From Bartonella callosciuri (GTDB taxonomy: Bacteria; Pseudomonadota; Alphaproteobacteria; Rhizobiales; Rhizobiaceae): DNA of 64,000 bases. Made by a program: the position numbers and the translations under genes. Positions 2,958 to 23,272 of this stretch are shown here, piece after piece. Under the pieces are notes generated by a model. That model was not told where the DNA came from. It saw only the letters and a program-made list of their open reading frames with translations, and did not search any database. The stretch is from assembly GCF_014203215.1 (NCBI RefSeq), contig NZ_JACHIM010000001.1:248001-312000 (forward strand). Direction: 5' to 3'. Position 1 is the stretch's first letter; the number at the start of each line of letters is the position of its first letter.

Positions 2958-3034
2958 TGGCGCGAGTGACGGGGCTCGAACCCGCGACCTCCGGCGTGAC
3001 AGGCCAGCACTCTAACCAACTGAGCTACACCCGC
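2958..3034 (-). tRNA. tRNA-Asp (anticodon GTC)
   Basis: Minus-strand cloverleaf of 77 bases with encoded CCA. The acceptor stem pairs GCGGGTG with CACTCGC (one G-U), the D arm is AGCTCAGTTGGTTAGAGT, the anticodon loop CTGTCAC gives GTC, and the T arm has GGTTCGAGCC. Decodes GAC and GAU. Confidence 0.95.
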
Positions 3035-3209
3035 GCAATTCTTTCTAACCAATTTATTATTGGCATAAGCGGTCGTGTAAGGGGTTCATCCGTTTATGTC
3101 AAGAAGGCTTATGCATTTTTTCAAAAAAATCATCAAACATTATCTTTATTCTTGCGTTTGGAAAAATTTTTCCTTAAAGATTGCCTATTCAATTGCTAAT
3201 CATTGCATC

Positions 3210-3285
3210 GGGCGATTAGCTCAGCTGGTAGAGCGCCTCGTTTACACCGAGGATGTCGGGAGTTCGAGTCTCTCATCGCCCACCA
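3210..3285 (+). tRNA. tRNA-Val (anticodon TAC)
   Basis: A 76-base cloverleaf with encoded CCA: acceptor GGGCGAT pairs with ATCGCCC, anticodon stem CCTCG/CGAGG encloses the loop TTTACAC (TAC), and the T loop is AGTTCGAGTCT. Reads GUA and probably other valine codons. The same downstream repeat follows this gene and tRNA-Ser. Confidence 0.95.
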
Positions 3286-3302
3286 TTTAGCTTTATTTTA
3301 TC

Positions 3303-3385
3303 AATAACCTATTGATTTTATATATCTTTTTCAAGGTGCGGGATAAATAAAGGTTAGGGAATAGCATTTTTTGACATTTTTCCGC
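3303..3385. repeat. tRNA-flanking repeat, copy 1 (boundary segment)
   Basis: The segment beginning AACCTATTGATTTTATAT and containing AAGGTGCGGGATAA starts 17 bases after tRNA-Val. A close copy begins at 4343, 18 bases after tRNA-Ser. Matching distance from two unrelated tRNA genes argues that the repeat was delivered by an element that uses tRNA 3' ends, though no integrase is present. Confidence 0.7.
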
Positions 3386-3612
3386 AACAGAGAATTTTCC
3401 TCTCTTTTCGCTTCGCTAATTACTTCTAATAATTGTTTGAATGCTTCGAAAGCTTCTCGTGAAAAAACATTTAAAATTCTCATAAACATCCCAACAATTT
3501 TACGACTCAATGGATCCCAAGGCTTTATTGTAAAATAACTTACAAAAAGAATCAGCTTCTTTTCTTAAAAGGGATCGCTGTTTCTTGATCTAAAGCATAG
3601 AGTTCAATAATT
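3331..3612 (-). pseudogene. Degraded small gene, repeat family copy 1
   Basis: Read on the minus strand, this gives ELYALDQETA, then after a frame disruption near 3560, DPLSRKIVGMFMRILNVFS and EAFEAFKQLLEVISEAKR, ending at a TGA at 3331-3333. The protein-level match to the copy at 4769-5058 (ELYVLDQETADLL, PLSCEIVGMFVRVLDVRSQ, EDLEAFKKLLEKIS) shows that both descend from one real gene. Function is unknown. Both copies are broken. Confidence 0.65.
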
Positions 3613-4236
3613 TTTTTCCATCCTAACTATAAGCTTTTTATCAATCTCTACAAGAAAACAAAATATGCTTTAAGCTATAAAATGAAAAAGGAGTTTTAGA
3701 ATAAATGTAGCCTGCGATTCGTGATCTGTTTAAAGGCATAAGTAGTAGAAACATAAAAAATGATAAATATAATATCATAAGCACAATCATGTGTGCGCTA
3801 AAGCCACACTTTAGCTGCTTTACTCTAAACGGTTAAGGAAAAATTAATGATTTTTTAGCCCAGAGTTATGTAGTAGTTGTGGATTTTATAATAATACAAC
3901 ATTGTTTTCGATAACCTCAATGTAAAAGGAGATCTAAACCTAACCCAAAAAAAGAAAACCATTTCGAGAAAAAGAATAAACTTGCTCAAGAAGCGCTACT
4001 GTCTTAGTCAATAATAGCATTTTAAAGCTCTGTTATAATATCGTATCTATCTTTCATTTCTTCGGTGTGAAATTATTCATATTATAATGAAGCTAAAATT
4101 AAGCAAAATTTTAAGGATTCAAAGGATTAAAAGTTATTTTTAATAACGCTTCAACCAGTTTTATTAAAAATGCCTAAAAGCACATTTAAATGATTGACCT
4201 TTTGCGAGAACTTTGTAAAAAAGCATATTCAGTTTG
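3613..4236. other. AT-rich intergenic region before tRNA-Ser
   Basis: No supported gene. Short reading frames are interrupted everywhere and no repeat of the neighbouring family was seen here. Confidence 0.5.
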
Positions 4237-4325
4237 GAGGGGTGGCCGAGCGGTTTAAGGCACCGGTCTTGAAAACCGGCGTGCAGGAGACTGTACCGTG
4301 GGTTCGAATCCCACCCCCTCCGCCA
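4237..4325 (+). tRNA. tRNA-Ser (anticodon TGA)
   Basis: An 89-base class II tRNA with long variable arm and encoded CCA. Acceptor GGAGGGG pairs with CCCCTCC, the D arm is GGCCGAGCGGTTTAAGGC, the anticodon stem CCGGT/ACCGG surrounds CTTGAAA (TGA), and the T arm is GTGGGTTCGAATCCCAC. Decodes UCA and related serine codons. Confidence 0.95.
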
Positions 4326-4342
4326 CAGCACTTTTATCGTGC

Positions 4343-4462
4343 TATAACTTATTGATTTTATATGTGTTTTTTTAAGGTGCGGGATAAGTAAACAAAGGTT
4401 CGGGAATAGGATTTTCAAACTTGCTGTTCCAAAACGCATTCTTTTTTACTAATTTTCTCTAG
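4343..4462. repeat. tRNA-flanking repeat, copy 2 (truncated)
   Basis: Begins ATAACTTATTGATTTTATAT, matching the segment after tRNA-Val, and continues through AAGGTGCGGGATAA and GGAATAGGATTTTCAAAC to ACTAATTTTCTCTAG, where the inverted-repeat element starts two bases later. The second half closely matches 4769-4855. On the minus strand it corresponds to the C-terminal end of the same degraded gene as copies 1 and 3. Confidence 0.7.
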
Positions 4463-4463
4463 T

Positions 4464-4768
4464 TGTAGTTTGACAGTAGGTTTTGCATAATTTGACAGCA
4501 GGTTTTGCATCAATTTATTTTTTTTCAAAGAGTTTTAAAGGGGGTCTCAAAGGGTCTTCAAAGACCTTTCAAAGCTTTCTCTCATTTTTACCATGAAAAC
4601 GCTCTTTTTTCTGATTTTTGGTAATTTTCGCAATTTTAGGTGTCAAAATCTATTTTGGCAAAACGCGCTTTTAATGCTAAATTTTATGCATAAAAATAAC
4701 AAATTATCACCTATTCCTAACTAATCCCACCTCTTCTCACTTACTGCAAAACCTACTGTCAAACTACA
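4464..4768. mobile_element. 305-bp element with perfect 24-bp terminal inverted repeats (MITE-like)
   Basis: The sequence at 4464-4487 (TGTAGTTTGACAGTAGGTTT plus TGCA) is the exact reverse complement of 4745-4768. A second, imperfect copy of the terminal motif (TTTGACAGCAGGTTTTGCAT) follows just inside the left end as a direct repeat. The interior has no open frame but contains a hairpin around AAAGGGTCTTCAAAGACCTTT. Size, lack of coding content and perfect termini fit a miniature inverted-repeat element; no matching transposase or clear target-site duplication is visible, so mobility is inference. Confidence 0.6.
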
Positions 4769-5058
4769 GGTGAGGGATGCGTGGATAAAAGTGAGGGAAT
4801 AGGATTTTCAAACTTGCTTTTCCAAAACGCATTCTTTTTTACTAACTTTCTCTAGTATTTACTAATTTTCTCTAGTAATTTTTTGAATGCTTCTAAATCT
4901 TCTTGTGAACGAACATCTAAAACTCTAACAAACATACCAACAATTTCACAACTCAATGGATTACAAGGCTTTATTGTAAAATAACTTACAAAAAGAATCA
5001 GCTTCTTTTATTATAAGAGATCTGCTGTCTCTTGATCTAAAACATAGAGTTCCATAAT
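4769..5058 (-). pseudogene. Degraded small gene, repeat family copy 3
   Basis: On the minus strand the frame reads MELYVLDQETADLL, two consecutive TAA codons, KKLILFVSYFTIKPCNPL, SCEIVGMFVRVLDVRSQE, DLEAFKKLLEKISK, then another stop (TAG) and KNAFWKSKFENPIPS. Apart from the stops it stays in one frame for about 85 codons, so it was recently a gene. It is the better preserved sibling of the copy at 3331-3612. No family was recognised. Confidence 0.65.
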
Positions 5059-5303
5059 CTTTTCTTCGCAATAGTTTATCAGTCTTCTCAGAAACAACTA
5101 AATTCCGTATCAGATATCTGTTACATTATTCTGGATAAAGGAATATATCCTTATTAATTCCATATTCTTTTTCTTTATCCACATGACGTGATAAAAAATG
5201 TTTTCTACTTTACTCCTCATTTATATCATGCTTCGATACGGAGAGATTTTTCATTTTCAGTGTAATTTTAAGCTTAATAATAATTAAAGGGGGCTTCCTA
5301 AAA

Positions 5304-6698
5304 ATGAATGATGAAAAAAACATAAAAGAAAATCCTCAGAAAAAACTGCAACGCGGACTCGACAACCGCCATGTGCAGCTTATCGCTATTGGTGGTGCCA
5401 TTGGAACAGGACTCTTCATGGGATCAGGAAAAACAATCAGCGTAGCAGGCCCTTCAATCCTACTCGTTTACGCTATTACCGGTTGCGCCTTATACCTCGT
5501 AATGCGCGCTATGGGAGAATTATTACTTTCTAACTCACAGTACCGATCTCTTGTAGACTTTGCAACCGATCTGCTAGGACCAGGAACTGCTTTTTTTATT
5601 GGCTGGAGCTATTGGTTGAGTTGGGTTGTAACCGGAGCCGCAGATATTATAGCGATCATCACTTATATGCACTTTTGGTGGCCAACACTCAACCCATGGA
5701 TTATTGTTTTCACGTGCGTTATTTTCTTTCTAAGCTTTAACCTTCTTGCCGTAAAATTATTTGGTGAACTTGAGTTTTGGTTTGGTCTTATTAAAGTCGT
5801 AGCAATTATAGCATTAATCATTGTTGGATTTTATATGATCGCTACTGGCTTTACCTCTCCAAACGGTACCGTTGCCTCTCTTAGCCACGTATGGAACGAC
5901 GGAAATATCTTTCCTCGAGGAATTACAGGTTTTTTTGCTGGTTTTCAAATTGCCATTTTTGCTTTTGTTGGTATAGAAATTTCTGGAACGACTGTAGCTG
6001 AAGTGAAAGAGCCTAAAAAAGTTCTACCAAAAGCAATTAACTCAATACCTATTCGTATTGTACTCTTTTATATCTTTTCTCTTCTTGTGATTATGTCAGT
6101 CACACCTTGGGACCAAGTGAAGCCAGATAAAAGCCCCTTTGTCGCAATGTTTTGCCTTGCTGGCATTCCAATAGCTGCTGGCTTAGTAAATTTTGTTGTT
6201 CTCACATCAGCTGCTTCTTCAGCAAATAGTGGTATTTTTTCTACCAGCCGCTTGATATATGGTCTTGCAACACAAAAAGGAGCTCCTAAACTTTTAGGAA
6301 AACTTTCTGGCAACCGCGTTCCAGCTAACGCTCTATTCTTTTCTTTCTTGTGTATTTTATTAGGGTATACAGTTGCATCGCTGTCTCCAAGCATCATAAG
6401 TGCTTTTACAATTGTCTCCAGTATTTCAGCAATTGCATTTATATTCGTATGGTCTGTGATTTTGATCAGCTATATCGTTTACCGACGCAATCGTCCCCAC
6501 CTACATGCTGAATCCATCTACAAAATGCCAGGGGGCGTTATCATGTGTTGGGTTGTTTTAGTCTTCTTTGCTTTCATTCTCTTTTTGTTAACATTAGAAT
6601 CTGATACCCTAATAGCGTTAAAATATACTCTATTATGGTTTATTTTATTAGGCATAACGTATTTGACATTTGTAAGGAAAAACTCAACTAAAAGATAA
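5304..6698 (+). CDS. cycA: D-serine/D-alanine/glycine transporter CycA
   Basis: Amino acid/proton symporter of the APC superfamily in the inner membrane, 464 residues with about twelve hydrophobic segments. It matches E. coli CycA along its whole length from memory, for example RHVQLIAIGGAIGTGLFMGS near residues 22-41 (with the consensus GGAIGTGLF), RAMGELLLSN, ITGFFAGFQIAIFAFVGIE and SAASSANSGIFSTSR. The start has an AAAGGGGG site 11 bases upstream. It stands alone and is convergent with ilvC. Substrate assignment rests on overall similarity; other small neutral amino acids are possible. Confidence 0.9.
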   Translation: MNDEKNIKENPQKKLQRGLDNRHVQLIAIGGAIGTGLFMGSGKTISVAGPSILLVYAITGCALYLVMRAMGELLLSNSQYRSLVDFATDLLGPGTAFFIGWSYWLSWVVTGAADIIAIITYMHFWWPTLNPWIIVFTCVIFFLSFNLLAVKLFGELEFWFGLIKVVAIIALIIVGFYMIATGFTSPNGTVASLSHVWNDGNIFPRGITGFFAGFQIAIFAFVGIEISGTTVAEVKEPKKVLPKAINSIPIRIVLFYIFSLLVIMSVTPWDQVKPDKSPFVAMFCLAGIPIAAGLVNFVVLTSAASSANSGIFSTSRLIYGLATQKGAPKLLGKLSGNRVPANALFFSFLCILLGYTVASLSPSIISAFTIVSSISAIAFIFVWSVILISYIVYRRNRPHLHAESIYKMPGGVIMCWVVLVFFAFILFLLTLESDTLIALKYTLLWFILLGITYLTFVRKNSTKR

Positions 6699-6728
6699 CA
6701 CATAAAGTTTGTACATAAAAAACATCTT

Positions 6729-6762
6729 TAAAAGGGTTACAAAAGTTACCCCTTTTTATGCA
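6729..6762 (+). terminator. Rho-independent terminator after cycA
   Basis: An imperfect hairpin AAAAGGGTTAC / GTTACCCCTTTTT with AAAA loop ends in a T run 60 bases after the cycA stop. It lies between convergent genes and has an A run on the other side, so it may also serve ilvC. Confidence 0.6.
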
Positions 6763-6795
6763 TAAAATATGCGAACTCTTAGTTCCATATAAACT

Positions 6796-9704
<2,909 letters not shown>

Positions 9705-22704: not shown

Positions 22705-22821
22705 CTCCTTTCCAAAAATTAGCGGCTCTACTTTACAGCGACATCATATCACTTCATAAATAACTAGAGGATTTAAAATATTAACACCCCCCCCTTTTCC
22801 AAAGAGCATTCTTCATCTATA

Positions 22822-23150
22822 TTTAAAGAGCTGGCTTGCCAGCTATGGTAATAAATGGACAATGAAATAAACCCATTGGACCCGGGGGCGGTACCCGGCG
22901 CCTCCACCAAAATATAAGAAATAAAAATTATATTTTGGTGGGGGCGAAATAGGATCGACAAGGGCGTAAAGATTGCTCTTTTACTCGGCATAGTACCACC
23001 GTTATCGGACTAAATGAGTAGTTGCAAATGACAACTATGCGGAAGCACGTCTCGCTGCTTAATGCAGTGCGAATGTTTCAAACTAAGCCTTAAACCGTCG
23101 CAGGTTTAAGCGGGGTTCGAAGGCACCTGGCAACAGAAGCCTTCACTTTT
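22822..23150 (+). ncRNA. ssrA: Two-piece (permuted) tmRNA
   Basis: Rescues stalled ribosomes and tags the product for proteolysis. Gene order is the permuted alphaproteobacterial type: acceptor piece first, ending CGCCTCCACCA at 22909, then a removable spacer (22910-22939) that folds through ATATAA/TTATAT-type pairing, then the coding piece from GGGGGCG at 22940. The 7-bp acceptor stem pairs GGGGGCG with CGCCTCC across the two pieces. The T-arm GGACCCGGGGGCGGTACCCG lies at about 22878-22898. Outer ends are approximate. Confidence 0.92.
23024..23062 (+). other. tmRNA proteolysis tag reading frame
   Basis: GCA resume codon through TAA encodes ANDNYAEARLAA, the tag form typical of alphaproteobacteria, ending in the LAA degron read by ClpXP. 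The tag N-terminal part is the SspB contact, and the sspB gene follows at 23341. Confidence 0.95.
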
Positions 23151-23272
23151 ATAATGTTACTGATTGATCTTTTAGACATTATTTGTCATAAAATCCCCTA
23201 TTCTTTTTCGCTTAATTGAGATGCATAATAGAAAAAATATTGCTGGCTTTAAAATACATTCTATTGCACAAT

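Follow-up and report, generated by a model that had tools for sequence, protein, structure and literature searches.

The window, that is, the whole 64-kb stretch of Bartonella callosciuri DNA that was analysed, contains on its forward strand a tRNA-Ser(tga) gene (4236-4325) whose 3' end faces, 138 bp away, a short element of 305 bp (4464-4768, no strand assigned). By comparison within the window, the ends of this element form a perfect 24-bp inverted repeat (4464-4487 and 4745-4768), with 83% complementarity when the arms are extended to 40 nt, and a near-copy of the end motif (4488-4509) directly abuts its counterpart at 4466-4487, with 91% identity over 22 bp. No open reading frame of at least 60 amino acids lies within 4464-4768. 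The preliminary description, which had reported the perfect ends, the internal near-copy and the lack of an open frame, was accurate on each of these points at that cut-off. Within 400 bp, perfect inverted repeats reached 24 bp in the window but no more than 16 bp in 60 first-order Markov sequences of 64 kb each that were built from it.

The element is flanked by forward-strand part-copies of a tRNA-flanking repeat, identified by sequence comparison at 4375-4463 on the left and 4768-4856 on the right and 88% identical to each other. It had been placed exactly between two copies of this repeat; the part-copies do stand on both sides, but the word "exactly" does not hold, since the right one shares base 4768 with the element. 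This separate repeat of approximately 300 bp follows several tRNA genes of the same genome (Val, Ser, and Lys), with window copies at 3300-3616, 4360-4463, and 4768-5063, and part-copies also lie beside both ends of the prophage described below; outside the window, copies were seen in L044 (9850-9911) and L043 (10658-10725). Elsewhere in the window, ARAGORN gave a tmRNA gene, marked with an asterisk, at 22815-23153, with the tag ANDNYAEARLAA.

The element is repetitive. Its own genome contains 16 matching pieces, counting the element itself and its inverted ends, and, among the matches listed, 37 of the 61 genus genomes drawn contain at least one and 24 contain none; exact copies of the 24-bp end occur in contigs of B. 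tribocorum, B. rattimassiliensis, and B. queenslandensis. Both in the own genome and across the genus, most matches split into two pieces, q1-111 and q84-305 (numbered from the first base of the element), which overlap by 28 bp. The best own-genome pieces, C5:117739-117849 for q1-111 and C5:90731-90952 for q84-305, are the right end (attR) and the left end (attL), respectively, of a resident Mu-like prophage of approximately 27 kb (C5:90731-117849). Thus, the genus-wide search and the search for a transposase gene with the same ends, both proposed in the preliminary description, gave a positive outcome, and its view of these termini as those of a mobile element was borne out by a prophage carrying them. 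An insertion sequence or a miniature inverted-repeat transposable element (MITE) with a small transposase of its own was rejected, since the only transposase found with these ends is the prophage MuA.

In the resident prophage, a CI-type repressor gene is transcribed toward the q305 end, with a divergent Ner-like gene followed by genes for a ParB-like protein, MuA (DDE_2, Mu-transpos_C), and MuB (Phage-MuB_C), and there are also genes for a terminase-like protein and a DUF4815/gpD-type tail protein. The layout is that of Mu, with the c repressor toward attL, Ner divergent and the tail genes toward attR; matches to q84-305 sit past the 3' end of the HTH repressor gene, with Ner-like, ParB-like, MuA, and MuB genes inward, and matches to q1-111 sit at the tail/Dam end. 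The methylase gene beside the q1 end is in pieces in this prophage and whole in a relative. Its MuA, the only one found in the genome, is frameshifted, with overlapping pieces in different frames. Complete relatives, of approximately 35-37 kb between paired ends and with MuA in one frame, occur in G035 (four), G049 (four), G046 (one), and G023 (one); judged by the gene alone, MuA is also in one frame in G017 (three) and G045 (one). The domains DDE_2, HTH_Tnp_Mu_2, Mu-transpos_C, and Phage-MuB_C are present in both the resident and the G049 prophages, DDE_2 is present in 8 of 11 genomes searched, and Pfam assigns ParB_N to the G049 ParB-like protein. A search with the c repressor gave matches in 52 of 61 genomes, many of them weak and confined to the HTH half, and no clear nine-copy genome; a link to the Brt RNAs and Trp regulators of B. 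henselae, in which the Trp proteins would be these repressors, is, as far as they are presented in the part of PMC5387305 drawn on here, unsupported but not refuted.

The two halves of the element are joined in a chimeric junction. The attR-derived part (4464-4574, forward strand) differs from the right end of the resident prophage at a single base, q102, and the attL-derived part (4547-4768, forward strand) is 93% identical to its left end, with 15 mismatches in 222 positions, beside the c repressor. The shared 28-bp segment (4547-4574, forward strand) is a direct repeat present in both phage ends. Similarity to attR ends past q111 and similarity to attL ends upstream of q84. The resident attL differs from the element at q91 and q93 and next at q113, and within the shared segment the element agrees with attR at q91 and q93 but with attL at q102, which places the switch at about q94-101 (4557-4564). 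Such a junction is as expected for the product of an interior loss between direct repeats in the two ends, to judge from the letters of the shared segment. The attL half is closer to a phage of another genome, L009 (95.3%), than to the resident prophage, and the latter is for this reason to be regarded, on these comparisons, as a close relative and not as the proven parent.

The element is thus best explained, with a probability of roughly 85%, as a Mu-like prophage reduced to its two ends after the loss of its interior, i.e., as a natural mini-Mu in which the phage right end is fused to the left end. The homology of both halves, the chimeric junction, the gene content of the partner and the shared layout of the ends are direct observations on which this explanation builds. 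According to the proposed course of events, a Mu-like prophage would have sat downstream of tRNA-Ser(tga) with its right end toward the tRNA, and recombination between the 28-bp direct repeats, which lie approximately 84-111 bp inside attR and 195-222 bp inside attL, would have removed an interior corresponding to 27 kb in the resident relative and 35-37 kb in the complete relatives. The deletion presumably took place where the element now lies, at tRNA-Ser(tga). The same tRNA bears full prophages in G035, G049, and G023, and the nuo/tRNA-Asp/tRNA-Val synteny of the window is shared by G049 and G023 and was not seen in the short G035 stretch. Across the short copies, a phage end is the best match for 12 of 16 attR halves and for 15 of 22 attL halves, the latter with one tie. 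However, ten half-comparisons match another short copy best, namely those of L015 and L065 (both halves) and L022, all of which share one site, and those of L159 (both halves), L156, L157, and L049. Also against this reading, the window copy shows no target duplication, and the flanks in the window do not simply rejoin into one copy of the tRNA-flanking repeat and, therefore, further recombination is needed.

The conservation of the ends and the position after a tRNA could also point to a regulatory or RNA element maintained by selection in the host, yet conservation follows the phage ends, 24 of the 61 genomes drawn have no match, and Rfam gives only tRNAs in window positions 3000-7000, making this reading highly improbable. 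Selection on the ends, one of the two reasons that had been offered for their perfection, is not needed, since bases 1-101 are identical to the right end of the resident prophage and the perfect ends are explained by recent descent from the phage. The other reason, recent movement of the window copy as a short unit, finds no support either, as this copy lacks a target duplication and its halves are closest to prophage ends. The own genome also contains older, decayed short copies with 69-70% identity at C1:106564-106842, C3:60771-61079, and C3:280588-280847, beside tRNA-Pro, tRNA-Gly, and tRNA-Ser.

A site matrix of 22 columns, derived from 49 distinct attR ends, places two abutting sites, R1 and R2, at attR and a single site, L1, at attL in all five prophages tested, and the element retains all of them: R1 (4466-4487, forward strand, 33.0 bits) inside the left terminal repeat, R2 (4488-4509, forward strand, 32.8 bits), which is the internal near-copy, and L1 (4745-4766, reverse strand, 33.0 bits) inside the right terminal repeat. 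The null for this matrix is crude, with a few stray matches per 200 kb even at 10 bits, and scores near 30 bits are far above that background. R1, R2, and L1 look like transposase sites and are putative binding sites for MuA. The element therefore has the make-up of a mini-Mu, with two ends bearing putative transposase sites and the interior gone, and in principle a related MuA/MuB pair could mobilize it in trans. In its own genome it is probably a fossil, because the sole MuA found there is frameshifted.

The bases next to the ends bear on whether short units have moved. Five bases on each side were compared for 22 short copies and 10 paired prophages, the start of one copy (L056) being placed by hand. 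At least four bases match in 10 of these 32 cases and all five in 5, against means of 1.4 and 0.24, respectively, with shuffled flanks; none of 20,000 shuffles reached the observed values. The parent phage does generate a 5-bp target duplication: among the full prophages paired in one contig, two of ten (G049a and G049c) match directly in all five bases, a third, G049b, matches only via the flank outside a stacked partial end, and seven show no match. Matches at four or five bases occur in 8 of the 11 short copies away from tRNAs, three of which (L015, L022, and L065) are one shared site, and in none of the 11 next to tRNAs, including the window copy, which is flanked by CTAGT and GGTGA. Uninterrupted sites were found as well. 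The short copy L056, in G049, has TCAAT on both sides, and its site is uninterrupted along almost all of the joined flank in G031, G039, G019, and G046 and partially so in G017 and G038; in G054 it is occupied, with the interior unread. Prophage G049a has TCGAC on both sides, and its joined flanks are uninterrupted in 38 of 60 other genomes, with only a short piece in G025 and nothing in 21 genomes. For the site shared by L015, L022, and L065, a clean empty site was sought and not found. The comparison of occupied and empty sites proposed at the outset thus succeeded for sister copies, some of them with target duplications and one with an empty site, but gave no duplication for the window copy. 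The element is accordingly not the single orthologous copy without empty sites that had been named as speaking against mobility.

These duplications give some weight to the idea that an already short mini-Mu, formed elsewhere in the same phage lineage, was inserted at tRNA-Ser. The duplication at L056, at a site empty in relatives, means that either a short unit moved or a full phage shrank later. At the window site, the missing duplication and the full prophages at tRNA-Ser(tga) in relatives speak against such an insertion, which is considered unlikely. It is less likely still that the short unit arose only once and was then copied as a unit, in the manner of a MITE, by the phage transposase acting in trans. 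Most short copies do share one architecture and a similar length, three 22-bp sites are retained, several of the copies away from tRNAs have 5-bp duplications, one of them with an empty site, and the pairs L157/L159 and L076/L156 are partly closer to each other than to phage ends. However, among the copies listed, the only ones at least 85% identical to each other are the three at one shared site, so that many near-identical short copies at non-orthologous sites, as in a MITE family, are not seen; the window copy lacks the duplication that would go with them; most halves match phage ends best; and at least one copy, L054, has another junction (q61 to q94). Reduction of a full prophage to its ends remains the preferred explanation, and the element itself can be described as a decayed remnant whose origin is clear.

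The ends of this phage lineage are closely associated with tRNA genes. The sample consisted of the listed copies plus the ends in stretches already extracted, giving 84 attR-type ends with at least 200 bp of outer flank each; stacked ends at one tRNA were counted separately and 13 rows typed "other" were excluded from the tRNA counts. A tRNA 3' end lies within 200 bp of 62 of these 84 ends, always in the same orientation (62 of 62, none opposite), at 6 to 162 bp with a median of 44 bp, nested ends included. By comparison, 1 of 36 attL ends is near a tRNA (Fisher's value 4e-14, with related genomes and stacked ends not being independent), as are 8 of 16 short copies and 3 of 6 less complete ones. 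The association extends over 57 distinct genome-by-tRNA pairs in 27 genomes and eight tRNA types, namely Ser(tga), Met(cat), Gln(ctg), Gly(gcc), Lys(ctt), Ser(gga), Ser(cga), and Pro(ggg), and of the eight full-length prophages with paired ends in G035 and G049, six lie at tRNAs, which are of four types. An independent pattern, consisting of a tRNA T-arm, 12-42 bases and TGTAGCTYGYC, matched 28 of 61 genus genomes, and its reversed form, used as control, matched none. These 28 do not include the own genome, in which the ends begin with TGTAGTTTGAC. In the order, the pattern matched 2 of 397 genomes, as did the control. Judged by its context, one of the two matches is due to chance, and the other, in G178 from another family, is real.

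In G178, a tRNA-Met gene is followed by two partial ends, a right end and then, inward, genes of gpD, gpU, and minor-tail type; its MuA is 50% identical, with adjoining Ner-, ParB-, and CI-type genes. On a second contig, the left end leads into the identical pentanucleotide, TTGCC, and then into the continuation of an older right end, giving a duplication of five out of five bases with the ends on two contigs, which presumably hold one prophage. Partial ends of approximately 5 to 125 bp, most of them starting with TGTAG, are often found between a tRNA and attR, and G178 suggests how such stacks arise: a phage inserted 11 bp into an older right end and duplicated 5 bp there. G049c represents the same kind of event, with the duplication GTCAA. 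Other arrangements were also seen. In the own genome, L049 (C3, 15502-15734) has a second own-genome tRNA-Ser(gga) followed by two stacked diverged right ends, and in L102 (G046:C1:898713-901713) the right end of a prophage follows, by eye, an apparent 3' fragment of tRNA-Ser, with no whole tRNA given there by ARAGORN. In G035, ACTGG precedes the attR in one of two loci, L085 (C1:1520362-1523362) and L091 (C1:1292281-1295281), and equals, in inverted orientation, the five bases after the attL of the other, which suggests that these prophages exchanged ends by recombination, perhaps inverting the intervening chromosome.

This statistical and comparative result suggests that the phage lineage homes in on tRNA 3' flanks, always facing the same way. 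In its full form, the proposal that Mu-like phages of one Rhizobiales lineage home to the region just 3' of tRNA genes, right end facing the tRNA, and insert again into the outer bases of their own older right ends, leaving nested fragments and mini-Mu scars that would record the history of each site, is considered probable, at a lower level of confidence than the origin of the element itself. The main rival is survivorship, according to which the pattern reflects random insertions that persisted in harmless places, or recombination among old copies, instead of targeting. Here, 22 of the 84 attR ends lack any tRNA in the adjacent 200 bp, a clean insertion lies in a transporter-like gene in G049, a matching duplication is missing from most full prophages at tRNAs, and Mu of E. 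coli, in the part of PMC7350765 drawn on here, enters the 5' leaders and 3' tails of tRNA genes. The single orientation of all 62 tRNA-adjacent attR ends against 1 of 36 attL ends, the six of eight full-length prophages at tRNAs of four types and the combination of a tRNA site with a 5-bp duplication in G049b, G049c, and G178 argue against survivorship, which is regarded as rather unlikely. Regarding the means of target choice, none of the seven early-region proteins scanned in one prophage matched TniQ/TnsD; position alone makes the ParB-like protein and two small ORFs that lack a Pfam match candidate selectors.

Homing to tRNA genes is known for Tn7-like CRISPR-associated transposons (CASTs), integrase phages and some eukaryotic retrotransposons, and phage Mu is commonly taken to exemplify widely dispersed transposition combined with immunity close to its ends. 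If true, the proposal would extend the tRNA-homing habit to the MuA/MuB machinery and make MuB-type target choice testable in a laboratory phage such as Aussie; the finding also explains non-coding repeats that follow tRNA genes in Bartonella. In the open-access literature, as far as its text was available, no report was found of natural mini-Mu or of a Mu-like phage with fixed-orientation insertion, or a preference, behind tRNAs; the available portion of PMC5977238 describes hotspots near BIMEs and does not contain the word "tRNA", nor does that of PMC11080155.

Among known systems, bacterial MITEs resemble the element in being short and non-coding with perfect terminal inverted repeats, but the element comes from a phage of 27-37 kb and gives no clear sign of copying as a unit. 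Tn7-like CASTs of types I-D and I-B2, as far as the available portion of PMC10293859 describes them, combine a DDE transposase with an AAA partner and insert near a tRNA gene, and the I-D system CyCAST homes 30-33 nt downstream of the tRNA gene using TnsD; in contrast, the spacing here is 6 to 162 bp and the scanned early proteins are those without a TniQ/TnsD match. A Mu-like prophage in Bartonella was already known, since a 35-kb one with gpD, gpX, and gpU genes is described for B. tribocorum (PMC2697382); the Bartonella prophage was compared with it and with phage cluster IV of B. grahamii, and section 13 of that source mentions neither ends nor tRNA sites nor short derivatives. Closest in MuA are Sinorhizobium phages Aussie and StopSmel and Ochrobactrum POA1180, with 52.2%, 50.4%, and 52.7% identity, respectively, over the whole length. 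Aussie has the early order c, Ner, ParB-like, A, and B of the Bartonella prophages and a methyltransferase near the other end, StopSmel has c, Ner, ParB-like, and A, and POA1180 has two regulators, ParB and two transposases. In the deposited genome of Aussie, the right terminus reads inward TGTAGCTCGCC and then, from base 26 (27 in Bartonella), TTTTGACACC, so that the second site-like stretch is one base nearer, and the left terminus begins with TGTTGT; in Aussie, unlike in the Bartonella prophages, three additional genes separate c from the left terminus. Mu itself has 22-bp end sites, as do the Bartonella ends, and shares with this lineage the MuA/MuB domains and the two-end derivatives. In the text available from the respective sources, its target is 5 bp, the same as here (PMC7350765), and mini-Mu is in laboratory use (PMC5847225); the present element, unlike Mu and laboratory mini-Mu, is natural, 305 bp long and, by the matrix, equipped with a single left-end site. 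In E. coli, according to the same portion of PMC7350765, Mu avoids mature tRNA sequence and the DNA adjoining its own ends. This cis-immunity would lead one to expect that a Mu-like phage does not re-enter its own older ends; unlike those of Mu, the Bartonella ends are found downstream of tRNA genes with a single orientation, and within older ends.
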